In this document: piece after piece, positions 2,835-45,730 of the stretch
Layout: each line of letters starts with the position of its first letter
How positions within the stretch are numbered: the first letter of the stretch is position 1
NCBI GenBank assembly: GCA_016931715.1
Contig: JAFGEF010000093.1
Location: 1 to 64,000 of the forward strand
DNA length: 64,000 bases
Reading direction: 5' to 3'
Source: Sedimentisphaerales bacterium
GTDB lineage: Bacteria; Planctomycetota; Phycisphaerae; Sedimentisphaerales; Anaerobacaceae
The notes under the pieces: model-generated
What the model saw: the letters and a program-made list of their open reading frames with translations, nothing else
Database searches by the model: none
What the model was told of the DNA's origin: nothing
Translations under genes and position numbers: made by a program

Positions 2835-2835
2835 T

Positions 2836-3729: not shown

Positions 3730-3745
3730 AATATTTTTCCTGATT

Positions 3746-9344: not shown

Positions 9345-10207
9345 GCTACAAGCCCTCCCCTTCGCAGGATTTTTTGTATTACTTCATCGAACGGTATATC
9401 CGAAGAAGTTGAAACCAGACCTATGCCGTGACGAGCGCAAAACGTCTCAAGCTCTGTGTTCCACTGACGTACAGCCTGTTCATATGCTGAAGCGATACTT
9501 CCTGTTATCGTAATTTTTCGACGCTGTGCGGTTTCAACACATTCCAGCTCTACATCACCTTTTAGGATGCATCGTCTCTCGTCAGGATTCTGGGTCTGTA
9601 TGCAGAAAACCTCGTGTTTGTTCCATTGGAGGAACTTGAGGGCTTCCTCATAGCCGTTCGGAAAGAAAAAATCAGAGACAGGAATAACCATTCCCCTGCG
9701 AGGATGCCACTGCTGAAGCGTTTTAACCGCTTTGTTAAAGTCAGATGTGCCTTCGAATGTTTTCGTGTCTTCGAGCGCACGCAGGACTTCGAGAGTTTTT
9801 CCGCGTCCGAGAGTCGGCACTGTTATGGGTGACAGGCGGTCGGTCATGCCGTATATTACAATTTTGTCCATGCTGTGCAGCGCAATATATGCAAGAGCTG
9901 CAACAAGCTGGCGGGCATAAAGAAACTTCGAGTCCATCGAGTGACTTGCGTCAAGAAGAAAATATATTGTAACATCCTCTTCCAGTTCGAATAGTCTAAT
10001 CATCAGAGTTTCGAGCCTTGCATAAACCCTCCAGTCAATAGCGCGATGGTCATCTCCTATGGAATACTCACTGTAATCAGCGAAAGTTATTCCGACTCCC
10101 TTTTTTGTGCTCTTGCGGTCAGCCTGCAGCGTACCGCCAAGAACCTTGCGAGCCAGAAGGTACAGAGATTCGAGTTTTCTTATGAATGCCGGGTCAGTAA
10201 GTAACAT
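9341..10207 (-). CDS. DUF58 protein
   Basis: 288 residues from ATG 10207, with AGGAA upstream. DUF58 proteins sit next to MoxR ATPases and combine a conserved basic domain with a VWA-like fold. Here the conserved domain shows GVGITFADYSEYSIGDDHRA followed by IDWRVYAR, and the VWA metal site is FLLDASHSMDSK. No membrane segment is evident, so it should act at the cytoplasmic face. It lies between the MoxR gene (16-base gap) and the BatA-like gene (3-base overlap). The paralogue at 36481-37377 has the same order of motifs. The family's role as adaptor between MoxR and membrane VWA proteins is a general inference. Confidence 0.88.
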   Translation of the reverse strand: MLLTDPAFIRKLESLYLLARKVLGGTLQADRKSTKKGVGITFADYSEYSIGDDHRAIDWRVYARLETLMIRLFELEEDVTIYFLLDASHSMDSKFLYARQLVAALAYIALHSMDKIVIYGMTDRLSPITVPTLGRGKTLEVLRALEDTKTFEGTSDFNKAVKTLQQWHPRRGMVIPVSDFFFPNGYEEALKFLQWNKHEVFCIQTQNPDERRCILKGDVELECVETAQRRKITITGSIASAYEQAVRQWNTELETFCARHGIGLVSTSSDIPFDEVIQKILRRGGLVA

Positions 10208-10223
10208 AATGAAAATTCCTTTC

Positions 10224-11294
10224 TCATAATGCTGCGGCATTTATAACGGTACGAATTATTTGGTCCGGTGTAATACCTTCGGCTTCACCTTCGAAGCTCA
10301 ATATGAGCCGGTGACGCATGGCAGGCACAGAAACTGCGTCAATATCTTCTATAGCTACATGATACCTGCCCGACAAAAGAGCGCGCACACGTGCAGCGGC
10401 CAGTATAGTCTGTGCCGCTCTCGGCGAAGCTCCGTGACGAACATATTTTTTCACATCTTCCGGTGATTGCGGATCGCGAGGATGCGTCAGACGAACAACA
10501 CGTATCAAATAATCCTGAATGCCTTCTTCGATAGGAATATAGCGGACAGTTCGTCCCATCCTGAGAATTTCATCTCCGGTAGCTACAGGCTCAATTTCCG
10601 GTTCTGTAATACCGCCGGTTCTTCTGAGTATCTCCGCAAATTCGCTGTGATTCGGCATTTCGACATGCAGCTTGAAAAAAAACCTGTCAAGCTGAGCCTC
10701 CGGAAGAGGATATGTCCCGTCCTGCTCGATTGGATTTTGTGTCGCAAGAACAAAAAATGGCTTAGATAAGGGATGCGTAACGCCGGAAACCGTTACATTT
10801 TTTTCCTGCATCGTTTCCAGAAGAGCTGACTGTGTTTTCGGAGTTGCCCTGTTAATTTCATCAGCAAGAAGAATATTACAAAATACAGGTCCCGGCTCGA
10901 ACTGGAAAATCTTTTGCCCGCCGCGCTGAATAAGAATATTCGATCCCACGATATCGGAAGGGAGCAAATCAGGCGTAAATTGTATTCGCTTGAAACTCAA
11001 GTGCAGCGCCCTTGCAATAGTATGCACCAGGGCAGTCTTGCCAAGCCCGGGAACACCTTCGAGCAGGACATGGCCGCCGCAGATAATGGCATTAAGGACA
11101 TTGTCGATTACATCTTCCTGTCCTACCATAAATTTCCGAATCTCCGCTTTCAGAATATTAAAAATAGAGCGAAACTGCTCTGCCGCCTGCTGCGCTTCTT
11201 CCGTTTCCACGCCGTTGCCATTCAGGAGTCCTGATGACTGCGTATCGCCGTTATCTTTCTGCGATGCAGAACTCTGTTGTTTATGGTCAGTCAT
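10224..11294 (-). CDS. MoxR-family AAA+ ATPase (first system)
   Basis: 356 residues. After a polar, disordered stretch of about 40 residues comes the AAA+ core: Walker A GVPGLGKT at 80-87, Walker B ILLADE at 141-146, the sensor-1 region VLATQNPIEQDGTYPLPEAQ, and the C-terminal lid with RHGASPRAAQTI. MoxR ATPases act as chaperones that insert metals or mature VWA-containing complexes. Start ATG 11294 has AGGAA upstream, and the gap to the preceding gene is three bases. The core is close to the second MoxR of this window (35349-36422). The N-terminal tails differ and Walker A reads GLGKT here against GLAKT there. Confidence 0.92.
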   Translation of the reverse strand: MTDHKQQSSASQKDNGDTQSSGLLNGNGVETEEAQQAAEQFRSIFNILKAEIRKFMVGQEDVIDNVLNAIICGGHVLLEGVPGLGKTALVHTIARALHLSFKRIQFTPDLLPSDIVGSNILIQRGGQKIFQFEPGPVFCNILLADEINRATPKTQSALLETMQEKNVTVSGVTHPLSKPFFVLATQNPIEQDGTYPLPEAQLDRFFFKLHVEMPNHSEFAEILRRTGGITEPEIEPVATGDEILRMGRTVRYIPIEEGIQDYLIRVVRLTHPRDPQSPEDVKKYVRHGASPRAAQTILAAARVRALLSGRYHVAIEDIDAVSVPAMRHRLILSFEGEAEGITPDQIIRTVINAAAL

Positions 11295-11297
11295 TGC

Positions 11298-12953
11298 TTA
11301 ATTTCCTTCATCAATATTATGAATATTTTCAAAATACGCTTTTACACCTGCTTTTACCGCTTCAGGTACATCTTCCCGTCGTACAAATGATTCAACCTGC
11401 CGCATATATTCTTCCAGTTCACGCTCAAGAGTTCCTATATTGCTTCCTGCACCGGAAGCCGATTCCTGTGAAGAAGTTATCGATGGTCCCGCTCCATGAG
11501 TTCCCTGAAGCTGGGTTATCTGGCCATTCGGAGCATCTTTACCGGGTTCGGTGTTTTTTGCATTGCTTGTACCGTAACCGGCTTCGAGACCACCGGGATT
11601 CGGACTGTTTGCCGGAGTTTGGCCTGAACCGTTCGGGCATGGCATATTACCTAACCCCTGCTGGCTTTGAGCAAGAGCGCCAAGCATGCCCTGCATCATG
11701 GATTGTGCCTGCTGTCTTGCAGACATCTGTTGAAGAAACTGCCCGAGGTTATTGAGATTCTGATTTGCATTCTGAGACATCTGCTGCATTTGTCCGGCAA
11801 ACTGCTGACCATTTTGCGCCTGGTTTTGGATAGCCTCCTGCATCGCCTGATTCATCTGCTGTGCCGACTGGTTCAATTGCTGCGCCATTTGTGCCAGCCG
11901 ATCTGTCGAAGACTGCTGATTTTTTTGTGAACCGTCTTTCTGTGTTTGATTATTCTGCTGGTTATTCTGACTTTGCCCATCGGAAGATTGCTGACTTGTG
12001 CCGGTCTGGGAGCGGGCAGCTTCTTCAGACATACGTGCGGCCATGGCTTTCAATTTTTCGATTTGATCCTTTTGAATTTCCATCGCCGCCTGGGGGTCTA
12101 TTTTAAATTCCTGCATCTCCTTCGATGCAGAACTATATTCTTTTTGTGTCAATTGATTGCCCAGAGCTTTTGTTGCATCGTCTTTTTGAAGCTGCTTTCC
12201 CATACGCTCCAGAAGCTGCTCGGTCTGACGCTGAGTCAATTTGGACAAAACTTCTCCAAGCTCTCTTTCAAGCTGAGCGTACTGTCTCATAGCATCTTTA
12301 ATATCAGGCGTTTCCTGAAGCTCATTCACACGCTGTCTTATTTCATTAATATCAACTACTTCATTGAGTTTCTTTTCCTCAAGCTCCTGACGTATTTGCT
12401 CGGTAATTTCATTAATCTGTTCATTAATCAATTGTGTTCTTTCGATAACAAATTGTTCCTGCTGCCTCTTTTGAACTATTCGCGGGCTGTCATCCTTAAA
12501 ACCCAATAAAGCGGAAGCGAGAATCAGGACAATCGCAAGAGCCACCAGGCAGGTCGGGCATTTATAACGAATTGATTTTAAGGAAATCGCAGAGATTGCC
12601 TTGTCAGTCTGTTGAGCCTGAAGCGCATAAAATCCGCTGCTTTTTCCTGCCTTGTGAAAACCAGAATACGAGCGTACGCCGTCTTTCAAAGAAAAATAAT
12701 CGTCTGTGAATTTCGCGGCCTGATAATGCGAGTGTCTCAAAAAATACCAGCAGCACATACCAGCAAATAAGCAGACAGTAAATACGACAGGATACCAAAA
12801 CAAGGGGACATGATAGCCGCGTATAATATAAATCAATGCTGCCAATGTGGTAAAGACACCGCCTGCGGCAAGTGAGCCTATGAACACAGTCAAGCCGAGA
12901 TGCCTGTTCAAACGACTCCTTACCCTTTTAATAAAGTTATCGATATGTTCCAT
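11298..12953 (-). CDS. Membrane protein with Gln/Asn-rich coiled coil (DUF4175-like)
   Basis: 551 residues. Two N-terminal membrane helices (TVFIGSLAAGGVFTTLAALI; WYPVVFTVCLFAGMCCWYFL) and a third at about 150 (LVALAIVLILASALL) precede a long charged coiled coil with repeated EQI/EL heptads. From about residue 320 to 450 the sequence is dominated by Gln, Asn, Ser and Met (NQQNNQTQKDG, AQQMNQAMQEAI), followed by a Gly/Pro/Asn linker. It ends in a short acidic helical tail. The layout mirrors the 1083-residue protein of the second operon, which has a Gly/Lys/Glu/Gln repeat instead. A DUF4175-like assignment rests on architecture, not on clear motifs. ATG 12953 has AGGGA upstream. Confidence 0.72.
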   Translation of the reverse strand: MEHIDNFIKRVRSRLNRHLGLTVFIGSLAAGGVFTTLAALIYIIRGYHVPLFWYPVVFTVCLFAGMCCWYFLRHSHYQAAKFTDDYFSLKDGVRSYSGFHKAGKSSGFYALQAQQTDKAISAISLKSIRYKCPTCLVALAIVLILASALLGFKDDSPRIVQKRQQEQFVIERTQLINEQINEITEQIRQELEEKKLNEVVDINEIRQRVNELQETPDIKDAMRQYAQLERELGEVLSKLTQRQTEQLLERMGKQLQKDDATKALGNQLTQKEYSSASKEMQEFKIDPQAAMEIQKDQIEKLKAMAARMSEEAARSQTGTSQQSSDGQSQNNQQNNQTQKDGSQKNQQSSTDRLAQMAQQLNQSAQQMNQAMQEAIQNQAQNGQQFAGQMQQMSQNANQNLNNLGQFLQQMSARQQAQSMMQGMLGALAQSQQGLGNMPCPNGSGQTPANSPNPGGLEAGYGTSNAKNTEPGKDAPNGQITQLQGTHGAGPSITSSQESASGAGSNIGTLERELEEYMRQVESFVRREDVPEAVKAGVKAYFENIHNIDEGN

Positions 12954-12986: not shown

Positions 12987-15900
12987 TTAATTTCGATTTT
13001 CAAGATTATCTGTTAAAGTTTTATATTCAGACAACGATTTCTGTGATAAAGATTTCGTATCGAACAAACGCCAATTCTCCAGAGCCTTTTCACGAAGATT
13101 ATTAGTATTCAAAAAATACATATAACCCTGCATACCATTCCATGGAGTTTCTGCTTTAATACCGATTTCAACTGCTTTTCGCCATGATTTTTCAGCTTCA
13201 CTCAACAATCCCTGCCTTGCCTGGTAAAACGCAAGATTCTGCCAGCATGTTTCATTAACAACAGGAAGAGCCATCAAGGTATCCGCGTTAGCGATAACTT
13301 CCTCAACAGAAAAAATCTTTTCGTTCGTAACAAGAGACATCATCGAACTACTGCCTTGCTGACTCATTGCTCCCGTAATTTGCTCAAGACTATAAAGCTT
13401 CTTAAGAATTTCCAGTCGTTTTTCAAAAGTCATATTCGTAGAACACATATATCTTGCCAGAACCTGGTGAGCGGCCAAAATTTCATTACTTCGGATGGTT
13501 ATGCTGTTCATCGAGCCTCCAAAGTTTTCTTGATACGGCTTTATTAAAGCAAAAGTGGATTCTATTTCCTTAAGTGTGTTTGGGCTGAGATTTGATGACT
13601 CATCAGCAAGTAATAACAATGCGGCTCTGCAGCATATAAGCTGTAAAATGCTCGAAGAATAACTCCGGTTATCAAAAGATGATAATAACTCTTGTGTAAT
13701 CTCAAGGAACGCTTCTATGTTCTCAGTTTTCCATTCTGTACCGGTTATCAGCTTAAGAAAACCGGTATTTATTGCCATTATATAACTGTTACTGCTAAAA
13801 CCACCCTGAGGATTAGATAAATTTTTCTTTATAGCGATAATCATGTCTGAAAAGCTCTTAATATCTCCCTTCAAGAGCAAATTCATCTTGTTTGCAAGTA
13901 ATAATTGAAAATCAGGATTTTCAGATGCATTCGATTGTGACGTTGAAAGCAGCGAAGACAAATCGATACGCATTGCCTGTTCATCCAGAGCGCTCGATAT
14001 ATATGGTAAAGTGCTAACCTCCTGAATGAAAAGAATCAATGCCTGTTTTTTGAGAATATCACTTTCAAATGTAATTTCATTAAGCTGCATAGCGAGATCT
14101 TTCAATCGTTCCTGCCGGGTAGAAATATTCCCAAGTTCTCCTGAACCGTAAGGGAAAGGCATAGGCTGGCTGCTGTTATTATGAGCATAAAGAAATACTT
14201 TTATCAAATACTGAATATCTTTTCGAGTGATATTCTGTAGAGACTCCGTTAGCCTGTCTTCAATCTGCGGATTATAAAGACCTCTCGAATCGAGCCTGAC
14301 TATATTAATATTATCCCTGACAAACTGCTCGAACAAAGGTTTATTCCGGTACTGTGCAAGCAGCGCAAGAGAGCAGGAACTGGTTTTCAAGGTGCCTTCA
14401 CTGTCGCTAACAAGTTTCATTGCCGCCTCATTGTTTTTCAGAAGCAGGCTCGTCTCAAACATCACGAGTTCTGAAACCGTTGCGTATTGTCGCATCGACA
14501 TTCTGAATGCGGCAGGCGGAAATTCTGATTCCGGTCTTCGCCTGGCTCTGCTTTCTAAATAAATATTTAATACTTTCGATGCCAAATCAGACCAGCCGGG
14601 GCGCAAAGGCGTAACATCAGATGCAAAATTATACTGCTGCCCTGCCTCCGGCATCTGTTGTTGAGTTGCCGAACGTACAAAACGATTAAGCAGATTATTG
14701 TATAAATCCCAATTAAATACAGTAGATTCGGAACTGCACCTTGACAAAATCAGCATTGCCTGGTCAGCAAGCTCGTCATACATTGGATAACTAATCCAGC
14801 TCTCGAAGGCATGAACTGTCATCAAACGCCATTGCAAAGACAGATTTTCATCTGCAAGAACATTTTTATAATGTTCAATTACCGGACGAACTTTTTCGCT
14901 GTCTGTTACAAATCCAAACATAGGCCTGAACCTGTAAACAGTTGCTGTCATTTCAATTTCACGAGCAAATGACGAATATTGCCCGTTTTGAGTCTCTCCT
15001 CCTGCCCACTGGATTATGGAATCCAATAATTGATTATCCCTCCACTGCTGATTCGAGAACAAACTGCTGAAAATCCCTGAAATTCCGGAAGCATTGCCGC
15101 TTCCAGTATAAGGTCCGACCTGTTGATAAATATTTTTTATAACATCTAATTTACTGGTTTGAACCTGTATTGTTTGTGTATATAGAGAAGCGATTTCTCT
15201 GTCTATCTGGTATAAGGAGCTGTCAGGGAAATTCTTTTGGCCTTTCGTATCACGCATCAATTTAATAACGATATTTAAGCTTTGTAACCTGTTTCCATCC
15301 TGCTGAATAAGACGGGAAATAATTCTGCCGATAAAATCCTGCCCCAGCGGTGTTCTCGACGTCCCTGAGTTTAACATCTGCTGGTTCAACTCAGCGGCTT
15401 TGGTTATAATTTTCAATATTATATCAGTATCATAAACAGTAACAGATGTCAGAATATTATTTACATAGGAATCAAGCTGATAAAAATCCGAGTTTAACTC
15501 AGCAATATTTTTAATATTAAGAAAAGAACTTATAGCAGGATTCATTAATTCACTGAAGGAAGACGAATTATCAATAGTTTCCTGTCTCGTAAAGATTTTA
15601 TGGTCTATAAGTGACTGAACTATATTTACACCGGGCATATTACCCCTATTACCTCTTTGTGACCATGTATTCACAATCCAGTCCATTTTATGCAGTCGGC
15701 TTATAATACTTAGTCTTTGCTCGAACGACAGATTTCTATTAACAAGATATTCAGCCAGTTTAGCGTAATATTCAGGCAATCTTTCATAACGCTGCCAGTT
15801 TTGCAGAATCCACTGAGTCTGAGAAGAAAACCTGTTATACTCTCTCTGTAATTCATCAACTTTTTCACTTAAAACGAAAAAAATACAATGGTTAATAAAC

Positions 15901-18900
15901 AAGGTATCTGTAGAATTCAGAGATACATTACTTTGAACAAAAAATTCGGTAGCGGCAGAAGCAAGAGCTGACATTTGTGAAACAGACCAGTTGCTCTTTA
16001 TGCAGTCGGCAGTCTTCAGGAGATTTTCCGCCATAGTATTTAGAAGCTCTCTGCCTGTATTCTGCTGGGCGCTGGAACTATTTATTATGACACTTTTAAC
16101 AGTATTTATAAAATGATTCGGATCGCCTGTAAGTATTTTTTCACAGCAGCTTGCCAAAACAAGATTAAACTGGTCACGGGAAGAATTGTTAAAGTTCAAA
16201 AACAAAGAACCTATGTCAATCTTTGCGGCCTGCTCAGTAAGACTGTCACTGACAAATTCAAGCGCATCAGGCTCGTTTATCAGCAATGCAAGAATTCTCT
16301 GCTTTATTATATGCTCATCGAAATTCACTTTATTATACTGCCCGGCAAGCCGCACTATGCGCTCTTTATGTGAAGCAGCAGGTACATGCTCCTGCTGCGG
16401 CGAATCAGGTAATGAAGATAAAACAACTTCCGCAAAATAACGAATATCTTCACGGGATATTCCTGCAAGGCATTTTTTAATACTTGCTTCAATCTCCTTT
16501 GTATATAATAAGGAACTGTGCGTTGAGGCAGTCTGCCAGAATTTCTCGATAACACCGGCAAGCATTACGTCCCTGCCGTATTGTGCAAGAAGAGCCCATG
16601 TGTCGAGGCTTTTACCCAATGGATTATCGTTATTATTCAATTGTGCCTGTATAAGCGCATCCTTGTTGATAATCAGCCTGATTTCAAGCATTGATTTTTC
16701 AATAGAACTGATACTGCTGTCAGCCAAAGCCGGATTTTGCTGTAATTGCCCTGTTGTTCGAGACATAAATTCCGGCTCACTTGCAAGAAATCCTCCGCCC
16801 AGTCTGCCCGAAGATACAACCATGCCTCCTCGTGCGCCTCGCGATATTACCTGTCGAAGTGCTTGCTCAAGTGGCTCTGCGTTCTCCTGAATTTGAATTG
16901 CAGGTATATTTTTTTTCTTTAATCTGAATTCTTCATAAGCAGCCGACAACTGTTCGGCAAGTTCCTTCCACTTCGGTTTGTCCTGCATTTTCAAAAACTC
17001 TGATACAGTACTGCTGCAGTAAGATTCAGGCAAATTCGGATACTGCCTCCATCCTTCTATCACAAGCGGCAATGCCTGCATAACAAGTTCTGAATTTGTC
17101 TGGTATGAAACATTATTATATTGACTTCGTTTTCGGAATTCTTCCAAAGCCATTAAACGCCATATAACGGAAAGATTCGAGTCAGCAATTACATTCAGAT
17201 AATAATCCGCGGATTCGTCTTTTTCCGGAGTGACTTCAGGCTGTACGGATTCTGTCATTCCTCTGCGAGAAGATGAACCGGAACGCAGCACAGCCTCTGG
17301 TGTGCCAGATCGTCTTACTGAAGAGCGTTGAAAACCGCTCGCATCAAATGATATATCGAACGAAGCATCAAAAGACGTTGAACGTCCAAATGGACCTGCC
17401 GGTCTTCTGCGTGCGGCACAGGCAAATTTTATTTCGCGTGCCAGTCCAGGATAGCTGCCGGATTCAATCTGTTTATTTACCCATTCTATTATCGAATCGA
17501 TTTCAGTCTGATTCCAGTTGTCGTTCTGAAATAGTGTTACCCATAATCCGGAAAGCCCAGAAGCGTTTCCCTTGCCGAAGTAAGGCCCGATTAACTCGTA
17601 TAAACTTTTAACCGCTTCAACCTTATTCTGATTCTTTTCATTTATCAACCTGCGATAACGTTCAAAAACAGTATCTGTAACTCTCTGCAGATAATCTCTG
17701 CTTAATACAATTTGCGGACTATTCGCATCGCGCGTAAGTTTTGTCGCGATTCCCAAATCAACCAAGGTAAAGTATGTGCCGTCCCGCTGCACGAGAATCG
17801 AGGAAACAAATTCATCTGCTTTCATGATTCCAGCAGACTGCATTGCACTTTCTGCATTCTGGGAATTGAGATTATACACCTCGTGAATAAAAAGATTTGT
17901 CTTAGTTAATATCTTAACACATAAATCAACATCCTGCCAAAGAGTAGAATTTAACAAGTTTAGAACATATTGCCTCAACTGGTCTTCATTCGCATTTATA
18001 TTTGTAATTTCACGAACGCTTTTAGCCTGTAAAAAAGCTTCTATCTGTTTCGTCTGGACAAATAAACCTTTCAATAACTCCCCGTATTGTTCTATTTCCT
18101 GGCGGGTTAAAACATTATAGTTCGTAAGATAAGACATCATATTGGACTGGTTCTCACGGCTCATTGCAGTCTGAACCTGTTCAGTTTGATAAAAACGCTT
18201 GATAATATCTATCTTCTTTTCAATCGGAAGATTTCTGCTGCGAATAAAACGACCAAGCGTATTACTTAATTCATAAAGGTTCATATAATTCGACAGATTT
18301 TGACGAATTTGAGCTGAGCATCGTTCCATCGCGGCAGGAATTTTTTCTTCTTTGCCGGCTAAAACATAAAGAACAACAACATTGCTAACCATGCGGCTCG
18401 GGCTGTAATACTGATTTGAGTTGGCAAGGAATTCGGCAGAAACATCAGCGAGCATAAGAATCTGCTGTTCTGTCCAGTTGTTTTGAATATTATTTGTCTT
18501 ATTTATAAACTCCTGACTAAGAACCTCATATACCTGACGCACACCAGACGGCGGATTTTGACCCGGATATGTCGAAAAAGATTTAATGACATTTAGAAAC
18601 GCATTCGGATCACCTTTCATTAATTCGTCTGTGCAATAATAAGCAAGTATCCTGCTCTGCGTCCTGACCAGGTTCGTGTCCTGTGTCGCTGCAAGAATGC
18701 CAAAATCGATATTTTTTCCAGCCTGCAATACATGTTCCGATACTAAGGGAATTAATTGAGAATCATTAACATAAAGTTCCAATATTCTGCTCTTGATAGG
18801 AACAGAATTAAAAACAACATCTCCGAACTTACCCGCAAGCTCTCGCAGACGCGCATTTCGATCTTTATTCAGTCTTTGCCGGCTGTTTCCTTCATCACTG

Positions 18901-21900
18901 AGAGAGCTTATCATTACCTCTGCAAAATAGCTTATATCAGCCGATTGCAGGAGATTGAGACAATCCGATAAGTTTTTCTCTATTTCGCTGTCGAAACGAA
19001 CTACATTCATCTGGTTTATATTATTGCTCCACTGTTTTTCCACCACAGCCTTGAAGATATTTGCCTGGTTATATTTTACAAGCAAAGCCCAGCAGTCAAG
19101 ATATGTTCCGGCTCTGCTGTCGAAACCATCGAGCATCGTCCGAACAGCATCATGCCGATTCAAACGCAGATTTATTTCAAGCATAGCCAATTGAATAGTG
19201 GCGTTACTATCGTAACTCGAAGAGCCGGTAATTATTGTAAGTCCGCTTCTGCCGCCTGAAGAAATAAATGGCGGAGCGGAACCTGACGGAGTAAGTAATG
19301 TATTGGTTTGTGCCGGCTGCCGCATAGACATATAAGCATCAGCAAGCCTCCCTGCCGCTTCCATCCACACATCGGTTTCAATTGGTACGGCATTTTGCAA
19401 GTTACGATTGGAAGGATCATTATTAGGTGAGCCGGAATTAATAAATCGACGGATGGTATTTGTAAAATAGTCTGAATTCAGATTCTGATAAACTTTCCAG
19501 CCTTCTATAATAAGGTTGATTTGCAGCATTAGGAGTTCTTTGTTAGCCGTCTGCTGCTCGATACTCGAATTACGGCTCATAAAAGAAGAGTCACGTCCTA
19601 AATATTGTTCAAGAGCGTAATTAGACATGAGCCTCCATACCAAAGAAAGGTTGGGATCCGCTAATACCTCCTGGTAGTATTGCTGTATCTCAAGAAAAGA
19701 ATTATCATTTATTGCCGATGAACCGAAATTTCCTGTTCGGCTAAAACGCTGCTGCTTATAAAAAGAAGCATTGACGGCAAATAATTTTGCAAGGCTGGGA
19801 TAGTCTCCTGATTCAGTCTGTTTGTTCGCCCAATTGATGGCTTCGTTCACAGTCTGCTCATTCCAGTTGCCGCTTTCAAATACTCTTCTGAACATCGAAC
19901 TCAGGCCGGACAGATTACCTTCTCCTGCATATGGACCGATATCCTGATACAGAACCTTTAATGCTTCAAGAGTATTGTTATTCAAAGACTGTCTGTATTG
20001 ATTATAACGTTCATAAATCGGGTATTCGAATTGCATTACATATGACGGCTCAATTCTTAGGTCGGGTACATTCGAGTCACGGATCAGTTTAACGAGAAAA
20101 CCTATCGAGCCGGGAGCAAAATTCCTGCTGTCACTCCGCATCCGATCTATAACTCGCGCAGTTAAACTTTGATTCGATGGATTTCTGTATTGGCCCCTTT
20201 TCTGCGCATCCGAAATCATTCCTTCGGCTTTTACTAATATCTCCAGACCTGCATCGACATCATACGAGACAAGTGAATTAATCAGATTTGAAGTATTTTC
20301 ATAAAACTGCGATTCATTAATCCTGAAGTCCTCGAATCTTTTATTGACCATAAATTCAGTGACTTTTTCTTTACCTGCTTCAGCTCGAAGCTCATTCAAT
20401 CTGGAAACTATTAATTTCATGTCATCAGTTAATGAATTGCCTTTGGCAGTCATCATCCCGACGGTATCACAGAGCATCATGCTTATTTCCTGCTGTCTTT
20501 TCGGATCAATTTTCTGTAACTGTTCCCAGTATTTGCCGATGCAGTCATATACTGCGCTGCGCCTGTTATCTGAAAGCTGCGCTATTAATAATTCCGTGCC
20601 GAATCCCGGGATGCCGGTAACTGTCTGCGATGAACGCTGCTCAAGAGACTGGCTTAAAAGCGAACGCAGATTCTTATATTGTGTACCCGAACTTTGCCAG
20701 AATCTGTACATCATATAACCATATACACTATTGTTTTGAAGCTGGGCAACCGGTAAAATCTTAAATGAATTCACATCTCCAAGAAACGGAGATTCATTCA
20801 GCATCTCCATTAGAACCTTAAAATCACCTGTATTCATTGAGCCCTGTGCAACGCTGTTAATCGCTTTATTGAACGCATTATCAAGCCCATTCTGAACATA
20901 ATAACGAATATCCGGAACGTAACCTTCAAAATCTTCGAATTGTGACAAAACAGTGAAAAGCAACTCGCCATTTTGAACCATAGTTCTCAGGAAGTCGAAA
21001 CAAATTTGTATTCTCTGGTTATTGGCGGTACTGCCGGACATTTGCCGATTATTATAATACTGCCTTATAAACTCGCCTCGTTTTTCTTTTGGTCCTAAAT
21101 ATAGATTTACGATATCATCAAGAAATTTTTTGGCAGATTCCTGATCTTCCTTTACAAGTTCACCCAAATAGCTTCTGACAAAGTCCCTGACCTGATATAT
21201 TCTGTTCTGATCATTGATATTAATCTGCTCAATTAAAAACTGATTTAAGTTGATTTTCAACGCACGGTCGGCACGTATTTCGATAATATGAGAAAGCGCC
21301 GCATCTTTAGACAGTAATGCATATTGCGAGGAGCCGCCTGAAATAATGTCGCTTTCAAGTATATTTTTCGCCTGGCTGATATAATTTTCAGGTGAAGCCT
21401 GATAAAGTGAAACTAAAAGCCTGACCTGTTTTGCTTCACCTATGCGATTATTCTTTTCCAGGATTGGCACAATCTCCTCAACAAATTCGTTCAAAGTTCC
21501 CTTCTGCCAGTTATAATATATCAGAAACTCAAGCGGACTGAGAATTTTCTTGTCTCGCCCGAATCCCCAGTTGTATGTGCTTAACAATCCGCCGCTGGAT
21601 GAACCGCCGCTTGAAGGACGATATTTCAGCATAGCATCAATAGCGATTTTGACAATATCATCACTTACTGCGTTTCTCGCTCGCGCTTCGGAATGCAAAT
21701 ACGCAAATCCCTGAGAAGCCAGATATGGAAATCGCAGCATCGATCTGCATAAACGGTTATGAACCTCACGGCGTCTTTGAGCCAGTTCTTCCTGCTCTTT
21801 AATAAAATTTATGTTATTTTGTGTGTTTGTCTGAGATTCAGAATAAAGCTGCGGCAATCTTATATTATTCCTCGAATAAGAATTTGCAATAGTTCTCGGT

Positions 21901-24900
21901 ATATTTGTCACCCATGATAAATTTGTCGAATTCACATCCTTAACATTATCGAGATACTGAGCGACAATTTCTACAATATCGTAAGAATATTTTACATTTT
22001 CACGATTATAATTGTTTTGTATATAATTCGATAACTGCTGCCCCAACTGACTTTGATAACGATTATCAATCGCCAGGAGACATTCAACAGATTTATCGGG
22101 ATCATCAGCAGCACTTAAGAATGCCAGCCAAACTCCTGCCCCGAACTCATTCGGCTTTATCCGCAGGATTTCTTCATAAACCTGTTTCGCTCTTTCTTTT
22201 TTACCCAGCAAGTCGCATAAACGTGCGAAAATGAGCAGTTTGCGCACGCTCCGTGTCGGGGACGGGTCAGATAATTCGATAATTTTATCTTCAACTTTAT
22301 ATGCATGTACAAGAGACAGTCGGTCATTTATATTCGAACTTTCATTGCTCCTGTCAGGCAGCAGAGATTCGCCCGCAATAAACTTCAGGTCCGACAGCAA
22401 TAATCGCATCGCAGGTTCTTTCTTCTCTTCGCGAAACATTTCAACGATTCTATTGTACTGCTGAGCAGATAAATCGGTAGTTCTCCCCAGTATCGTGTAC
22501 ATACCCTGCGTAAATGCACCGGCAGTACTTTGTGCAGATACATATCTTCTGGCAAGCTGCCGTGCCTCATCACCCAATCCGAGATTCCCCATTGCCTGTA
22601 TAAGCACATCTCGATATGACTGTGAGAATTGACTTTTGCCAAGACGTACTGCAGCATTGCGCGCCGATTCAAGGGCTTCAGGAATTGTTTTTAAGTCAAG
22701 CCCAAGCGAATAAGAAACCATAGCGCTATCAAGTACCTGCTGCACTGAAGCGTCCAAATCAGGTGATGCAGCTTTTCCGAGCATAATAATCGCCTGTTCT
22801 TTTTTGTTCTGTTTGGCAAGTATAGTCGCCGTTATTATATGCGCAGAAACTGATTTTGTTTGAGCTTCAATTTGTTCATTAAGAATTTCCAACGCTTTAT
22901 TTTCATTATTAGCGGCTATATAAACTATCGATTTAAGAATCGGATCTTCAAGCTTGGAAATAAATGAATCGATGTTTTCAGAATTCAGAAGCTTTTCAAA
23001 AAAGGCCGCATATTCGCTGCTTCTCTGAAAAAATAGTTGTGTTATTACATTCGGGAAATCCGGTAAATTATAAGGCGGATAATTCAATTCCGGCATCTGC
23101 ATCTGACCTCTGGAAAACGAGCCAGACGATATAAAAACCTGGTTAAGCTGGTTAAGCTGGTTAACCTGAACCTGCGGATTCTGTACAGCACGTTTTCTAA
23201 AATTAGCAACTTCTTTATTAAGTATATTAATGAATCTATCTACGTCGCCTCCGTTAATTAAGGCACCGGCGATACTATAAAACAGATTACTGCTTTGATT
23301 TTGCGGAGATTGCAGGTTTTCCTTATCGTACCAGCTTATCATTTTCTCTGTTATAAGTGACTTCTGCGGCTGTGATAGAATATTATCCTGCGCCCTTAAA
23401 ACCTGCGCATATCTTGACACTTCATAATCTGACAGATTTGTAATATTTTTAAGCAAATTAAACGATTCTTCAAGAATATCAGAAGCAGTTTTTTCTCTTG
23501 AGCCGTACCAGAGTCCCATAGTGCAGGCCAATTGAGGATAATTCTTTTTGAGAGTATCAAACACTCGGCGAATTTCCTGTTGGTTACTATTTATTGCGCT
23601 ATCTGAAATATACATGGCATATAAGCCCAGAAGAGATTCGTTTTCGGGATATTTCTTTACCAGTTCTGATATTGAACCGCTCAAATTATCAAAGTTAAAC
23701 TGGTCCATGTCGAGTATAAAGTCTAAAGACGAAAACTGACCAAATAAAGAATCGTTTGCAAAATATTTCTTAATTTTATTTTTCAATTCATCCGCAATTC
23801 CAGCGGTTTTATCAGCTTCATTAAGCATCTTACCCAATGAAAGAATATGAGCCATAGCAAAACCCGGCAAGTCATCAACTGTCGGAGGTAAATCGATAGT
23901 TTGTGATTGTGATGACCTCGAACCCATATACCAGTAGGGAAGATTATTATATTGCCTCTGATAACGATATGCCTGACTGAAAATTTGCTGTAAACTGAGA
24001 ATTTCTATCGCTCCGGGAGGCAGAATCTTCCCAAGATAGTCCAATGAGCCTGTTCTCTGTGAGAGAAGACTTTGTGCGGTATTACCCGGAATTTCCTGCT
24101 TTATTTCAAGAATTTGAAAAAAATTCTCTAAAGCTTGTTCATATTCGCCATTTTCCTCAAGACACATAGCATAAAGAAATGCCAGTTTATAATCCTGTGG
24201 ATGCTGTGTCAGAACTTCTTCGAGAAATTTTCCCGCCAACTCGAAATTTGTTCCGGCTATCATTGTTTCGGCTGTAGTTTGCGCATCGCGAGGATTAATA
24301 TTTGCACTCTCGCTCAAACCATAAAGAATATCGAATCCCTGTTCCTCACTGCCGTATTGAATATAAAGCCGGGCAAGTTTTTGCTTTGTGGAAGCAGTTG
24401 CATCAAGCAGCATAGCCTGCTGTAAAGTCTCGATTGCCTGTTCCCAAAATCCTTCCGATTCCTCGATACGCGCAATTTCATGCAATAATGAGACATCATT
24501 CGGCCTTAACCTGGCCGCCTCCATCAAAACCTGAAGGCGTTCTTCATGTTTACCCATTTGGCGATAAACTTCAGACATCGCAAGCAGCGGTATTACCGAA
24601 GTCCGGTCACTATTCCTGCGTTCCAGTAATTTCTCTATAAGAGCATCGGAATTTCCCATATTCCGGGATACCGCTGCAATATCGCGCATATAATCAAGTT
24701 TGTCCGAAATGTCCTCAGCTTCGTCATAAAGACGCCAAAGAATACGATAAGCCTGCGCATTTTTGTTTGAAGAGCGATACAGCAGAGCCAGTTCCGCCAT
24801 GATTTCCTTATTATTCTCAAATAACTGATCTGCAGCCCGCAATTTTTCGATAGCCGTATCTATTTCATACAGCCTTCTTAAAATTCTCGATTCGGTCAGT

Positions 24901-26978
24901 ATCGGTTCTGTACTGCCGGGCGAGGATTTCTTCCAAACCGGTATCCACTCAAGGGCTGTACGTGATTGTCCTGATTTCTCGTACAGGCTAATCAGTTCCC
25001 GCACATAAGATGATTCGTGAGTTCCTTTCAGTTCTATCAGTTCCTTTGTACATTCGGCAGCTTTGTCCCATTGCCTGCCGGCACTGAACAAATGTATTTT
25101 TTGCTGAAGCGCTATTTCATGATGCGCATTTCTTCTTGTATCCTGTGTATTAGAATTATTTGCATCAGGAATAAATTCACCAAGTACGCTCTGTGCTTCG
25201 TCCGAAAGATGACAATATTCCAGTAACTCTGATAACAGGCAAGTCTCCTGAATTGTTCGTTGTTTTTGCGATTTAAGCTCGGATATTGTCTTTTCAATAG
25301 TGCCTTTGTTTTTTTCTATAAGCAATCTCTGTTTAACAGAGGCTTGTATAAGTGATATACGATCTGACATTAATAACTGCTTTTGCAGCCATGGAAGGCT
25401 CTTTTCATATAATCCCTGGCGAATCGCTTCCTCGCAAAGCTGATATAAAAACGAAATGTCATTTTCAAATTCATCGTATCGTGCTTCAAGCCAGCTTAAG
25501 GAAGATTCCTCAAATCCCCTTGTGCCTGCGATTTTTGCGATGCGAAGAAGTGTCTGCATATCACCAGTCAGCGCTATCTTATCCCATATTTCAAGAGCTT
25601 TTTCTTTCTGATCATAACGATATAAAATCTCTGCATAGGCTTCTTTTGCAGTCAGGCTGTCCGGAGCCTGAGCCAGAAGCTTCTCAAAAACCTCAAGCGT
25701 TTTTTCTTTATAGCCATAATTTTCAAGTAATCTTGCAACACGCAGAAAAACATACTCGGATTTATCCGATTTATCCAGAAACGCTTCCAGCGTTTCGATA
25801 ACAGCCTGGGCATCACGATTCAAATAATATAAATCTGCCAGTTCAATCAAAAGTTCACGATCATCAGGATTTCGCTGACAAAGCTGTTTCATCATCTCGA
25901 CTGCTTTTTCAGTCTGTGAAGTTGACTTCAGAGCGTTTATATATGTTTGCTGGTTTTGCTTCTCTCCGGGTGTAATTCGCACTATTTCCTGAAATAAATT
26001 CAGAGCTTCGTCAAATTCACCAAACTGCAGAAGCAATTGCCCGAAACGCTTTTTGATACTTATTCGCTGCGGCTCAGCTTCAATAAATTTCTCCCAGAAC
26101 TCACGAAGAGCCCTGATATTATCTTCCCGCCTGAAAACACGCTCTATCTGCGAGCAAATCTGATTTTCCAGCCATGTGCCCTGCCCGACAAGCTCTAACG
26201 TTTTAGCGTACAAATCCAGAGCTTGTTCACTCTTGCCGCTGTATTGATAAATATCAGCCTTACGAAGCTGTCGCATTACCAGTTTATAGTTGTCTTTGGT
26301 CTTTTTCAGCAAACGGTCACTTGTTTCCAAAGCCTGTTCGTAAAGCCCTTCAGACAACTGAAGTTCAATTAAATCCTCAAACAGATCTTCGTCATCCGGG
26401 TAAGTCTGAATGAGTTTCTCCCATGTTTTGGCGGCATCTTCTTTTTTATCATTTCGTATATAAAGCCGCCCCAATAATTTACCTATTTTAATATTTAACT
26501 CAGCAACCTGAGCAGAATTTTTTGCCGTTTTTTCGATATAATCCGCGGCGGTATTTAAATCTGAAATTGCAGATTCAATATCAAGCAGCCTTGCTTCAAG
26601 AGAAGCTTTTTGATATAAAAGGTCGGGATTGGGAGTTTTGCCGGTTTCTGCTGCCTTTTGATAAAACTCCAGAGCCTCAGAGTCTTTACCCTGTCTTTCA
26701 TAGAAATACGCAAGCAGCAGCGATCCAGTGGAACCTGAAGAGTCTTTGGAATATTGCTTAAGGAATGTTTCCAGGCTTTCAACTGTGCCGGTATCAAGCC
26801 AGGCATCATAAAAGCTGTCGTAAAGGTAGTCTCCGACTGGATTTTGAATCAGTAAATTAAAGTATTTTTCAGCTCTCGGATCGGGTTTTTGTGACTGGCA
26901 AATAGCAGTAGAAATGAGAAAAAACACTATGACTACTATCCGCCATAGACTAAAAAAACCATTTCTTTGAAGTAACAT
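12987..26978 (-). CDS. Giant exported TPR/alpha-solenoid repeat protein
   Basis: 4663 residues in one uninterrupted frame, from ATG 26978 (TAGGAG nine bases upstream). A signal peptide (FSLWRIVVIVFFLISTAIC) is followed by about 940 residues of TPR-type helical pairs (for example LLLAYFYERQGKDSEALEFY and LGRLYIRNDKKEDAAKTWEK). A middle region (about 980-2200) is helical and less regular. Residues about 2219-4565 consist of three divergent tandem modules of about 780-835 residues (separate entry). A last TPR pair (ETCWQNLAFYQARQGLLSEA) closes the chain. TPR arrays bind other proteins, so this is most likely a periplasmic or surface scaffold. It is the first gene of the MoxR operon, 33 bases ahead of the next, which ties it to that system. 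Its function is not known. Confidence 0.88.
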   Translation of the reverse strand: MLLQRNGFFSLWRIVVIVFFLISTAICQSQKPDPRAEKYFNLLIQNPVGDYLYDSFYDAWLDTGTVESLETFLKQYSKDSSGSTGSLLLAYFYERQGKDSEALEFYQKAAETGKTPNPDLLYQKASLEARLLDIESAISDLNTAADYIEKTAKNSAQVAELNIKIGKLLGRLYIRNDKKEDAAKTWEKLIQTYPDDEDLFEDLIELQLSEGLYEQALETSDRLLKKTKDNYKLVMRQLRKADIYQYSGKSEQALDLYAKTLELVGQGTWLENQICSQIERVFRREDNIRALREFWEKFIEAEPQRISIKKRFGQLLLQFGEFDEALNLFQEIVRITPGEKQNQQTYINALKSTSQTEKAVEMMKQLCQRNPDDRELLIELADLYYLNRDAQAVIETLEAFLDKSDKSEYVFLRVARLLENYGYKEKTLEVFEKLLAQAPDSLTAKEAYAEILYRYDQKEKALEIWDKIALTGDMQTLLRIAKIAGTRGFEESSLSWLEARYDEFENDISFLYQLCEEAIRQGLYEKSLPWLQKQLLMSDRISLIQASVKQRLLIEKNKGTIEKTISELKSQKQRTIQETCLLSELLEYCHLSDEAQSVLGEFIPDANNSNTQDTRRNAHHEIALQQKIHLFSAGRQWDKAAECTKELIELKGTHESSYVRELISLYEKSGQSRTALEWIPVWKKSSPGSTEPILTESRILRRLYEIDTAIEKLRAADQLFENNKEIMAELALLYRSSNKNAQAYRILWRLYDEAEDISDKLDYMRDIAAVSRNMGNSDALIEKLLERRNSDRTSVIPLLAMSEVYRQMGKHEERLQVLMEAARLRPNDVSLLHEIARIEESEGFWEQAIETLQQAMLLDATASTKQKLARLYIQYGSEEQGFDILYGLSESANINPRDAQTTAETMIAGTNFELAGKFLEEVLTQHPQDYKLAFLYAMCLEENGEYEQALENFFQILEIKQEIPGNTAQSLLSQRTGSLDYLGKILPPGAIEILSLQQIFSQAYRYQRQYNNLPYWYMGSRSSQSQTIDLPPTVDDLPGFAMAHILSLGKMLNEADKTAGIADELKNKIKKYFANDSLFGQFSSLDFILDMDQFNFDNLSGSISELVKKYPENESLLGLYAMYISDSAINSNQQEIRRVFDTLKKNYPQLACTMGLWYGSREKTASDILEESFNLLKNITNLSDYEVSRYAQVLRAQDNILSQPQKSLITEKMISWYDKENLQSPQNQSSNLFYSIAGALINGGDVDRFINILNKEVANFRKRAVQNPQVQVNQLNQLNQVFISSGSFSRGQMQMPELNYPPYNLPDFPNVITQLFFQRSSEYAAFFEKLLNSENIDSFISKLEDPILKSIVYIAANNENKALEILNEQIEAQTKSVSAHIITATILAKQNKKEQAIIMLGKAASPDLDASVQQVLDSAMVSYSLGLDLKTIPEALESARNAAVRLGKSQFSQSYRDVLIQAMGNLGLGDEARQLARRYVSAQSTAGAFTQGMYTILGRTTDLSAQQYNRIVEMFREEKKEPAMRLLLSDLKFIAGESLLPDRSNESSNINDRLSLVHAYKVEDKIIELSDPSPTRSVRKLLIFARLCDLLGKKERAKQVYEEILRIKPNEFGAGVWLAFLSAADDPDKSVECLLAIDNRYQSQLGQQLSNYIQNNYNRENVKYSYDIVEIVAQYLDNVKDVNSTNLSWVTNIPRTIANSYSRNNIRLPQLYSESQTNTQNNINFIKEQEELAQRRREVHNRLCRSMLRFPYLASQGFAYLHSEARARNAVSDDIVKIAIDAMLKYRPSSGGSSSGGLLSTYNWGFGRDKKILSPLEFLIYYNWQKGTLNEFVEEIVPILEKNNRIGEAKQVRLLVSLYQASPENYISQAKNILESDIISGGSSQYALLSKDAALSHIIEIRADRALKINLNQFLIEQININDQNRIYQVRDFVRSYLGELVKEDQESAKKFLDDIVNLYLGPKEKRGEFIRQYYNNRQMSGSTANNQRIQICFDFLRTMVQNGELLFTVLSQFEDFEGYVPDIRYYVQNGLDNAFNKAINSVAQGSMNTGDFKVLMEMLNESPFLGDVNSFKILPVAQLQNNSVYGYMMYRFWQSSGTQYKNLRSLLSQSLEQRSSQTVTGIPGFGTELLIAQLSDNRRSAVYDCIGKYWEQLQKIDPKRQQEISMMLCDTVGMMTAKGNSLTDDMKLIVSRLNELRAEAGKEKVTEFMVNKRFEDFRINESQFYENTSNLINSLVSYDVDAGLEILVKAEGMISDAQKRGQYRNPSNQSLTARVIDRMRSDSRNFAPGSIGFLVKLIRDSNVPDLRIEPSYVMQFEYPIYERYNQYRQSLNNNTLEALKVLYQDIGPYAGEGNLSGLSSMFRRVFESGNWNEQTVNEAINWANKQTESGDYPSLAKLFAVNASFYKQQRFSRTGNFGSSAINDNSFLEIQQYYQEVLADPNLSLVWRLMSNYALEQYLGRDSSFMSRNSSIEQQTANKELLMLQINLIIEGWKVYQNLNSDYFTNTIRRFINSGSPNNDPSNRNLQNAVPIETDVWMEAAGRLADAYMSMRQPAQTNTLLTPSGSAPPFISSGGRSGLTIITGSSSYDSNATIQLAMLEINLRLNRHDAVRTMLDGFDSRAGTYLDCWALLVKYNQANIFKAVVEKQWSNNINQMNVVRFDSEIEKNLSDCLNLLQSADISYFAEVMISSLSDEGNSRQRLNKDRNARLRELAGKFGDVVFNSVPIKSRILELYVNDSQLIPLVSEHVLQAGKNIDFGILAATQDTNLVRTQSRILAYYCTDELMKGDPNAFLNVIKSFSTYPGQNPPSGVRQVYEVLSQEFINKTNNIQNNWTEQQILMLADVSAEFLANSNQYYSPSRMVSNVVVLYVLAGKEEKIPAAMERCSAQIRQNLSNYMNLYELSNTLGRFIRSRNLPIEKKIDIIKRFYQTEQVQTAMSRENQSNMMSYLTNYNVLTRQEIEQYGELLKGLFVQTKQIEAFLQAKSVREITNINANEDQLRQYVLNLLNSTLWQDVDLCVKILTKTNLFIHEVYNLNSQNAESAMQSAGIMKADEFVSSILVQRDGTYFTLVDLGIATKLTRDANSPQIVLSRDYLQRVTDTVFERYRRLINEKNQNKVEAVKSLYELIGPYFGKGNASGLSGLWVTLFQNDNWNQTEIDSIIEWVNKQIESGSYPGLAREIKFACAARRRPAGPFGRSTSFDASFDISFDASGFQRSSVRRSGTPEAVLRSGSSSRRGMTESVQPEVTPEKDESADYYLNVIADSNLSVIWRLMALEEFRKRSQYNNVSYQTNSELVMQALPLVIEGWRQYPNLPESYCSSTVSEFLKMQDKPKWKELAEQLSAAYEEFRLKKKNIPAIQIQENAEPLEQALRQVISRGARGGMVVSSGRLGGGFLASEPEFMSRTTGQLQQNPALADSSISSIEKSMLEIRLIINKDALIQAQLNNNDNPLGKSLDTWALLAQYGRDVMLAGVIEKFWQTASTHSSLLYTKEIEASIKKCLAGISREDIRYFAEVVLSSLPDSPQQEHVPAASHKERIVRLAGQYNKVNFDEHIIKQRILALLINEPDALEFVSDSLTEQAAKIDIGSLFLNFNNSSRDQFNLVLASCCEKILTGDPNHFINTVKSVIINSSSAQQNTGRELLNTMAENLLKTADCIKSNWSVSQMSALASAATEFFVQSNVSLNSTDTLFINHCIFFVLSEKVDELQREYNRFSSQTQWILQNWQRYERLPEYYAKLAEYLVNRNLSFEQRLSIISRLHKMDWIVNTWSQRGNRGNMPGVNIVQSLIDHKIFTRQETIDNSSSFSELMNPAISSFLNIKNIAELNSDFYQLDSYVNNILTSVTVYDTDIILKIITKAAELNQQMLNSGTSRTPLGQDFIGRIISRLIQQDGNRLQSLNIVIKLMRDTKGQKNFPDSSLYQIDREIASLYTQTIQVQTSKLDVIKNIYQQVGPYTGSGNASGISGIFSSLFSNQQWRDNQLLDSIIQWAGGETQNGQYSSFAREIEMTATVYRFRPMFGFVTDSEKVRPVIEHYKNVLADENLSLQWRLMTVHAFESWISYPMYDELADQAMLILSRCSSESTVFNWDLYNNLLNRFVRSATQQQMPEAGQQYNFASDVTPLRPGWSDLASKVLNIYLESRARRRPESEFPPAAFRMSMRQYATVSELVMFETSLLLKNNEAAMKLVSDSEGTLKTSSCSLALLAQYRNKPLFEQFVRDNINIVRLDSRGLYNPQIEDRLTESLQNITRKDIQYLIKVFLYAHNNSSQPMPFPYGSGELGNISTRQERLKDLAMQLNEITFESDILKKQALILFIQEVSTLPYISSALDEQAMRIDLSSLLSTSQSNASENPDFQLLLANKMNLLLKGDIKSFSDMIIAIKKNLSNPQGGFSSNSYIMAINTGFLKLITGTEWKTENIEAFLEITQELLSSFDNRSYSSSILQLICCRAALLLLADESSNLSPNTLKEIESTFALIKPYQENFGGSMNSITIRSNEILAAHQVLARYMCSTNMTFEKRLEILKKLYSLEQITGAMSQQGSSSMMSLVTNEKIFSVEEVIANADTLMALPVVNETCWQNLAFYQARQGLLSEAEKSWRKAVEIGIKAETPWNGMQGYMYFLNTNNLREKALENWRLFDTKSLSQKSLSEYKTLTDNLENRN
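13284..20324 (-). repeat. Three tandem ~800-residue modules inside the giant protein
   Basis: Approximate module limits are 20324-17997 (residues 2219-2994), 17996-15492 (2995-3829) and 15491-13284 (3830-4565). Landmarks recur in the same order in each. They are YQDIGPYAGEGNLSGL / YELIGPYFGKGNASGL / YQQVGPYTGSGNASGI; then INWANKQTESGDY / IEWVNKQIESGSY / IQWAGGETQNGQY; then NLSLVWRLM / NLSVIWRLM / NLSLQWRLM; then DISYFAEVMI / DIRYFAEVVL / DIQYLIKVFL; then NYNVLTRQE / DHKIFTRQE / NEKIFSVEE. Divergence is high at the DNA level, so the duplications are old. Confidence 0.8.
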
Positions 26979-27046: not shown

Positions 27047-27073
27047 ATTATACTCGGTATGTGAAAATGTCAA
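27047..27073 (-). promoter_or_regulatory. Sigma-70-type promoter for the giant-protein/MoxR operon
   Basis: Read on the minus strand, TTGACA (27073-27068) and TATAAT (27052-27047) are both perfect consensus hexamers with a short 15-base spacer. Transcription would begin near 27040, about 60 bases before the ATG at 26978. It is the only good promoter seen ahead of the ~22-kb gene run. Confidence 0.6.
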
Positions 27074-32684: not shown

Positions 32685-33521
32685 TTACCATGATGGAATG
32701 GGTGCTCCACCCGGCCAGCACATTTTAAAGGAATTTGATGGTGCAGGGGTTGCCGGATATGCCGAAGCACTCTCAACATGCTGATCTACAAATGCCGCAT
32801 ATGCTACACCATTATTCAAATTTTTCAAAGATGTCTCATGGAACGTTGCAAGTGAATGGAAACTGCTATTAGGAACACAAAATAAAACAGTATCATTAAA
32901 TGAGTTATTATTGAGACCATCAATCTTCCATGTGTTTTCTTCAGAAAACAGAATTACCTTGGACGGATTTTTAACTCCTGTTTCTTTGACAGCATTTTGT
33001 ACGAGACTTTGGTATTTTGTTGGTGTAACAGATGCTCCATATATACAGCCGCCAAGATAGGCATTCATGTTATAACTATATATAGGTTCTATCGGGATTT
33101 TACCTTTGCCATGACAGACATCACAATCACCCACTGCTCTTGCTGTACTGCTAAATACCGGGCAAAGATGTATATCTTTGTCTTTAAGGTAGGGCCATAA
33201 ACTACCCGCAAGCTTAGGCATGTCTTCAAGATTTATCCTTTTGTCATGCCAATCACAATTGTTGATTCTTCCATCGTTAAAGAGCCATCTTGCCGGATCA
33301 GGAAAGTTGCCTTTGTTATCATCCAGATACATCCTGTCTGCATATGCATATTGTTTCAGGTTGTTTCTGCAGAGAATTTCCTGTGCCTGCCTCCTGACTT
33401 TTTGGAGTGATGGCATTAAAATTGCAAGAAGTACTGCTATTATGGCGATAACCACCAGAAGCTCAATCAATGTAAAACCATCTCGCCTGTGTAACGTCCT
33501 CTCGATTTTCTTTCTGTTCAT
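32685..33521 (-). CDS. Prepilin-type protein, paralogue 1
   Basis: 278 residues from ATG 33521 (GGGAG upstream). A basic leader of 15 residues ends in Gly, then [20 protein letters not shown] gives the type IV prepilin site: cleavage after G15, Glu at +5, methylated Phe. A coiled neck ([14 protein letters not shown]) follows. The body belongs to the planctomycete prepilin group with a C-terminal His/DG motif, but here the usual VDGH reads FVDQHV. It ends in [10 protein letters not shown], shared with paralogue 2. Such proteins are minor or major pseudopilins of type II secretion or pilus systems. No other pilus gene is nearby. Confidence 0.88.
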
Positions 33522-33617
33522 AATTGTGTCTCCCGATTTCATTTACTTTACAGTTTATTTCCCAATACCAATTTTGCCGATCGAAATATAATAATACTGC
33601 AAACATTTAAAATTATA

Positions 33618-33661
33618 ACACTATCAAACAATATATTGCAACACTATTTTTGATAGTATTA
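33618..33661 (-). terminator. Inverted repeat between the two prepilin genes
   Basis: AACACTATCAAA (33618-33629) and TTTGATAGTATT (33650-33661) form a 12-bp stem with one G-T pair and a 20-base loop. It lies just beyond the stop of paralogue 2. On the minus strand it is followed by a weak AT-rich tract, so termination or mRNA-end protection is plausible but not certain. Confidence 0.45.
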
Positions 33662-33668
33662 GCGTTTA

Positions 33669-34484: not shown

Positions 34485-34811
34485 GATTGATTCTCCTGTT
34501 TTGCATGTTTTACAGTTCATTCTGCCAAATCCTATTCTTCCTGAAATATGTACAGATACTGCAAACTATTTTAATTATACAATTATTAACCGACTTAACA
34601 CAATATTACTTATAAATATTACTGTTATTTCACAAATAATTTGGATAATTCCTTTTTATTTCTTACTTATATATATAGAAGCATTGGAATAAAAGTAACT
34701 AAAATGAGCTTAAGTAAATTAAAGTTTTTCGTTTTTTCTTGACTTAAGTCCTTTTAGACATTTTCAACCTCAGAAATTTATAATAACCTCTTTTAGGAGG
34801 AGAGAAACTTA

Positions 34812-35310: not shown

Positions 35311-35348
35311 AGAGATAGTTGTTGACTATTTATTTAAGGGATAGGCGT

Positions 35349-36422: not shown

Positions 36423-36480
36423 GCAGAAATTTATTAAAATGGATTTTCGAAAAATCGTGCTTTTTTAGAGGAATAGGACA

Positions 36481-39428: not shown

Positions 39429-39441
39429 GAAAGGTTCTATT

Positions 39442-45712: not shown

Positions 45713-45730
45713 TAATAATTTTAATTATTG

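Follow-up and report, generated by a model that had tools for sequence, protein, structure and literature searches.

A giant exported protein, predicted to be an alpha-solenoid, is encoded at the head of a MoxR-VWA operon in planctomycetes

Introduction

What is a 14-kb gene doing at the head of a MoxR operon? The question is raised by a 64,000-nucleotide stretch of DNA from a Sedimentisphaerales bacterium (hereafter the window; GenBank assembly GCA_016931715.1, contig JAFGEF010000093.1), in which a single reading frame of this size heads an operon that includes moxR. A preliminary description, made from the sequence alone, read the product as an exported TPR protein and suggested that it belongs to a large envelope assembly outside the usual MoxR models. 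We asked if the gene is real, how its product is built, if its link to MoxR holds in other genomes, and what the protein might do.

Results

The giant gene is intact and heads a six-gene operon

The frame opens with an ATG and continues for 4,663 codons with no internal stop (Table 1). It is preceded by an AGGAG ribosome-binding site 9 nt 5' of the ATG, and its product begins with a signal peptide whose hydrophobic stretch spans residues 8-26. The next gene starts at 12953, leaving a gap of 33 bases. On all of these points the preliminary description was accurate. Its "consensus promoter" is correct as to the hexamers, which are both perfect, but not as to the spacer, which at 15 bp is below the consensus of 17. 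Two TTGACA-15-TATAAT sites occur in the window against 0.16 expected by chance; a scan of the window for the hexamers with a spacer of 16-18 gave a count not above chance. Elsewhere, a perfect TTGACA-18-TATAAT is found at 52892-52921 (-), just upstream of a TPP-enzyme gene (50672-52834). Upstream of the giant gene lies a gene for a DUF4139/DUF4140-like protein (27396-28910, -), a relative of which is 79% identical in a genus-mate (G001) and is not followed by a giant there; G001 has several copies or relatives, on short contigs. The window also encodes a Fic-domain protein (62048-63385, +) and, at 32685-34520 (-), two adjoining proteins whose N-methylation motifs resemble those of type IV pilins.

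Table 1. Features of the giant gene and its operon in the window.
Feature	Position	Strand	Basis or remarks
Promoter-like site TTGACA-15-TATAAT	27047..27073	-	about 70 nt 5' of the giant start codon
Giant exported gene (predicted alpha-solenoid), 4663 aa	12987..26978	-	ORF list, intact frame; collinear homologues
Export signal, residues 1-28	26895..26978	-	hydropathy; homologues also start with export signals
Core part 1, TPR region, residues 30-970	24069..26891	-	Pfam TPR families
Core part 2, all-helical, residues 971-2000	20979..24068	-	almost no Pfam match; kept in homologues
C-terminal module 1, residues 2221-2990	18009..20318	-	self-comparison and AF2 model
C-terminal module 2, residues 2997-3815	15534..17990	-	self-comparison; 32% identity to module 1
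C-terminal module 3, residues 3830-4570	13269..15491	-	self-comparison; 25-27% identity to modules 1 and 2
C-terminal TPR-like cap, residues 4571-4663	12987..13268	-	weak self-match to residues 89-149, E 0.002
551-aa partner	11298..12953	-	three membrane helices, coiled coil, Gln/Ser/Gly-rich linker
MoxR AAA+ ATPase	10224..11294	-	Pfam AAA_3 E 8e-63; Walker A GVPGLGKT and Walker B ILLADE intact
DUF58 protein	9341..10240	-	DxSxS motif intact; Pfam
BatA-like membrane protein, 607 aa	7521..9344	-	VWA with degenerate metal site, NNSAS for DxSxS
VWA and glutamine-amidotransferase-like membrane protein, CmdD-like, 835 aa	5010..7517	-	VWA metal motif DKSGS intact

A frame of this length might instead have been fused or falsely extended during assembly or gene calling, which the preliminary description had itself named as a way to overturn it. 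The length is certainly unusual, and the MAG consists of 173 contigs. However, the gene lies on a 97-kb contig and, at lengths above 30 bp, shows no near-identical DNA repeats, and in-frame, collinear homology extends over 2,000-3,000 residues in independent genomes. We therefore give an artefact hardly any credence, and for the core these alignments indicate that it is already refuted. Because the operon and its giants recur in the order and in other planctomycete families (see below), the giant is not an artefact and is not peculiar to one genome.

The operon encodes, in order, the giant, a 551-aa protein, MoxR, a DUF58 protein, a BatA-like protein and a VWA protein with a GATase-like domain. 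Pfam recognizes the MoxR, DUF58, BatA and VWA/GATase genes downstream of the giant. The MoxR matches PDB 2r44 with 279 bits; a bpMoxR-domain profile also matches it, more weakly than AAA_3. The start of the DUF58 protein, which has no match in PDB, more likely lies at 10207 (MLLTDP...), as in its homologues. Both GATase1_like (E 1.6e-21) and VWA matched the 835-aa protein in Pfam, and three membrane helices are predicted in it. The 607-aa protein matched BatA and VWA_2 alone; no DUF4159 was matched in the operon, and none of the six proteins matched BatD. The 551-aa protein belongs to no family in Pfam or NCBIfam and ends in a conserved VRREDVPxxVKxGVKxYFExIH-type motif. DUF4175, which it resembles in its helix and coiled-coil layout, was rejected as its family, since relaxing the E cutoff to 1 still gave no match.

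By hydropathy, neither MoxR nor the DUF58 protein has a membrane helix. The BatA-like and VWA/GATase proteins each have two N-terminal helices and one C-terminal, with a large domain predicted to lie outside by hydropathy and charge; the same rules place outside the approximately 400-residue coiled-coil and low-complexity tail that accompanies the three helices of the 551-aa protein. Charge and hydropathy thus suggest that the large domains of the BatA-like and 835-aa proteins and the tail of the 551-aa protein are periplasmic, as the giant would be.

The giant consists of a shared core and a variable arm

Pfam TPR matches above the gathering score fall mainly in residues ~88-963, the first fifth of the giant, and from ~1000 to 4570 there are just isolated weak matches at ~1350 and ~1585. 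The name "TPR protein" is thus apt for the N-terminal region and not for most of the chain: beyond ~970 Pfam matches almost cease, and the modules described next have profiles that do not match the core. Comparison of the protein with itself, done with overlapping pieces, revealed three C-terminal modules of 740-820 residues that are 25-32% identical to one another, followed by a TPR-like cap that also ends the L009 giant. The possibility that the modules are copies of the core was rejected, as module profiles gave no significant match to it.

An AF2 model of module 1 (residues 2206-2995) was all-helical (pLDDT 77, pTM 0.69), as was a model of residues 1000-1990 with low global confidence (pLDDT 66, pTM 0.43). 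Foldseek with the module model returned generic HEAT/karyopherin-type solenoids, with a best E of 1.6e-3 and TM of at most 0.31 among the 50 matches listed; since all were generic, with E 1.6e-3 or worse, we did not accept any as a specific structural homologue of the module. A search of PDB with hmmsearch found no sequence relative of the module. Because the models are all-helical, the fold matches generic and PDB relatives lacking, the giant chain is best described, as far as such models go, as one very long alpha-solenoid.

All giants share a core of ~2,000 residues, made up of ~960 residues of TPR and ~1,000 that are helical and without Pfam matches. Giants of 1854-2040 aa that lack an arm align collinearly with window residues ~14-1985, at about 30-36%. 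Profile comparison (E 5e-83) identified this same core in the giants of family f35, as their first ~2,000 residues. What follows the core is another matter. The arm is absent in eight genomes (G043, with its partial contigs, among these) and is a single module of ~740 residues in G074 and G075. The arm of the G508 giant is related to that of the window (E 1e-7). The G140 giant carries about three and a half copies of a ~616-residue repeat with a distant relationship (E 3e-12) to the module of the window, and f35 giants have a ~2,000-residue tail that is unrelated to the window modules by profile comparison.

In a tree of nine modules, the three from the window cluster together, with 94% bootstrap for the split. 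This grouping is consistent with the three-module arm having arisen by duplication in the window lineage. A paralogue in G140 carries a single repeat unit and its sister giant several, a probable second sign of recent arm expansion. On sequence evidence, then, giants appear to grow by addition or duplication of C-terminal pieces, and to have done so on more than one occasion. Several giant paralogues were seen in both G074 and G140, including a tandem pair in G074.

The giant co-occurs with one MoxR clade across the order and beyond

Among 161 genomes of the order, the 551-aa gene is present in 12, and a profile of giant residues 1000-1990 matched the same 12, as did MoxR at an identity of at least 73% (the next MoxR is at 55%); these 12 genomes are related and do not represent 12 independent events, although one of them, G140, is from a different family. 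On every contig of sufficient length, the order giant, 551, MoxR, DUF58, BatA, VWA is kept. Named public relatives come from Phycisphaerae, Sedimentisphaerales and other planctomycete MAGs. Conservation is highest for MoxR (73-76%) and declines through DUF58, VWA, BatA and 551 to the giant, a gradient in keeping with an engine that is conserved and an outer part that evolves fast.

The operon was not found in two genus-mates, which are 88-89% complete. Because the two that were searched are without it, the function of the operon is apparently dispensable in the genus of the window. The preliminary description would have been undermined by close relatives with no long homologue beside moxR; such relatives exist in the genus, but at the level of the order the co-occurrence stands.

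In a phylum sample of 392 genomes, the same operon was found in two further planctomycete families, with giants of 2939 aa (G508) and 2805 aa (G182); in G401 the locus is cut off upstream. A third family, f35, encodes giants of 4226, 4124, 4423, 3885, 3637 and 2241 aa in divergent orientation beside moxR, and a 3738-aa giant that heads a 551-like gene with MoxR just past it. Many other 551-like genes of f35 stand alone, apart from giant and moxR. In G580 a giant and MoxR-type genes are co-directional. Upstream of a close MoxR orthologue in G425, no giant lies within 8 kb.

These distributions bear on the proposal that the giant serves at the cell surface or in adhesion and that its place in an operon with MoxR is a coincidence. 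Reva and Tummler (cited in PMC5177795) are reported to have assigned more than 90% of giant genes in bacteria to surface proteins or PKS/NRPS, and G074, G075 and G140 hold further, paralogous giants that lack a 551-aa neighbor. Chance neighbors would, however, hardly show exact co-occurrence in a set of 161 genomes, as the giant, MoxR and the 551-aa gene do, together with linkage in several families, and Pfam found no adhesion domain or adhesion repeat in the operon. We consider this proposal improbable. The extra giants do suggest that part of the giant family may act alone, given that they have no 551-aa partner.

Comparison with known MoxR systems

In the Bat operons of Bacteroides and spirochaetes, MoxR, DUF58, BatA-type VWA and TPR proteins are encoded together, with the TPR domains being parts of small proteins. 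The operon studied here has the Bat-type arrangement of a MoxR adjoining DUF58 and BatA-type VWA, together with a TPR component in the form of the giant. It differs in that a single exported, predicted solenoid of 1,850-4,663 residues is encoded, in that BatD is unmatched, and in the addition of the 551-aa and VWA-GATase proteins. A periplasmic complex of Bat proteins with VWA domains, TPR scaffolds and MoxR-associated proteins has been proposed earlier (PMC3557215, PMC5700661), and bat deletions left growth and morphology of Leptospira biflexa unaffected (PMC3557215).

The window itself contains a second MoxR operon (35319-46582, +) of the conventional planctomycete type. It likewise has MoxR, DUF58 and BatA-like genes; unlike the giant operon, it encodes no giant and has 1083-, 734- and 283-aa proteins and a DUF4159 protein. 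The 283-aa protein has a weak caspase-like match. The 1083-aa protein (39442-42693, +) has no Pfam match, and its region has a strong A-over-T skew (0.30 at 40-42 kb). The MoxR of this operon is 82% identical in G001, where the giant operon is not conserved. Seven MoxR paralogues are encoded in the 4.5-Mb genome G000.

The Rhizobium cmdABCD operon (RL3499-RL3502) encodes MoxR, DUF58 and VWA/GATase-like membrane proteins, as does ours, and is not known to contain a giant TPR gene. Ours differs from a Cmd-type operon in that no DUF4159 protein and, for the 551-aa protein, no DUF4175 was matched. The effect of the cmd operon on cell envelope and morphology is cited in PMC5700661.

PMC7159879 describes vWA-MoxR ternary systems in planctomycetes, in which MoxR and vWA genes are found together, sometimes with TPR. 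Could the giant be the fast-evolving third component of such a conflict or immunity system? The patchy distribution (12 of 161 genomes), the lineage-specific C-terminal arms, the weaker bpMoxR-domain match and the presence of these systems in planctomycetes all fit. However, Pfam found no effector or STAND domain in our operon, the giant carries an export signal, DUF58, BatA and the GATase-like protein make up a Bat/Cmd set, and the giant core is kept across the phylum. A conflict role thus seems quite unlikely.

Bat systems that contain TPR proteins are, then, already known, as are Cmd operons and the giant genes of planctomycetes; genes over 5 kb are described as common in Planctomycetes (PMC5177795). 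Term searches found no mention of TPR or tetratricopeptide in the text of that paper, and no such giant protein in PMC7159879. We found no description of a giant solenoid combined with MoxR-VWA in open-licence full texts on MoxR, planctomycetes and TPR. New relative to the usual MoxR models are the giant solenoid, as predicted, the C-terminal arms that differ between lineages, and the partner of 551 aa. We regard the locus as a distinct MoxR-VWA subtype, spread through the phylum and marked by a modular giant.

Discussion

The growth of the giants at their tails, together with their recurrence beside a MoxR-VWA machine, points to a large, undescribed envelope scaffold. We think it somewhat more probable than not that the giant is the secreted alpha-solenoid scaffold of a MoxR-VWA envelope machine, with a conserved core for docking and a variable arm. 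The signal peptide would export the giant, so that the ~2,000-residue core and three-module arm would sit in the periplasm. There, docking by way of its conserved core, the giant may bind the coiled-coil tail that extends from the 551-aa membrane protein, as well as the VWA domains of both the BatA-like and the VWA/GATase-like protein. MoxR, helped by cytosolic DUF58, would spend ATP at the inner membrane side to assemble, load or remodel the complex. The variable arm, here a triplicated ~800-residue module, might set its reach or add client-binding surface. By analogy with Bat and Cmd, the complex would act in envelope assembly or maintenance. Of the assembly first suggested from the window, the linkage to MoxR/VWA is now confirmed widely; the assembly itself is something we infer, and the idea of a periplasmic complex is not new.

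Alternatively, the giant could act in the periplasm as a holding chaperone or as a platform to which secreted clients bind before their maturation by MoxR/VWA, with the arm diversifying what is bound and not serving to build a structure. Peptide binding is common among TPR and HEAT-like solenoids, MoxR proteins are regarded as chaperones (PMC3893208), and the arm is the least conserved part, with modules 24-32% identical and f35 tails unrelated. No conserved candidate client gene is seen in the six-gene operon, however, and we regard this reading as possible but not likely. A bolder version of the scaffold reading is that the scaffold is planctomycete-specific and size-tunable: an ATP-driven inner-membrane MoxR-VWA machine would build or anchor the giant, whose length would be set by the addition or duplication of C-terminal modules, perhaps matching the unusually wide planctomycete periplasm. 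This we find doubtful, and offer as speculation.

The clients and architecture of MoxR-VWA systems are poorly known, and the giant is a concrete candidate for a structural partner. As its presence in the order matches that of a single MoxR clade one for one, it could serve as a marker to pull the complex from the cell. One class of unexplained planctomycete giant genes thereby gains a genetic context.
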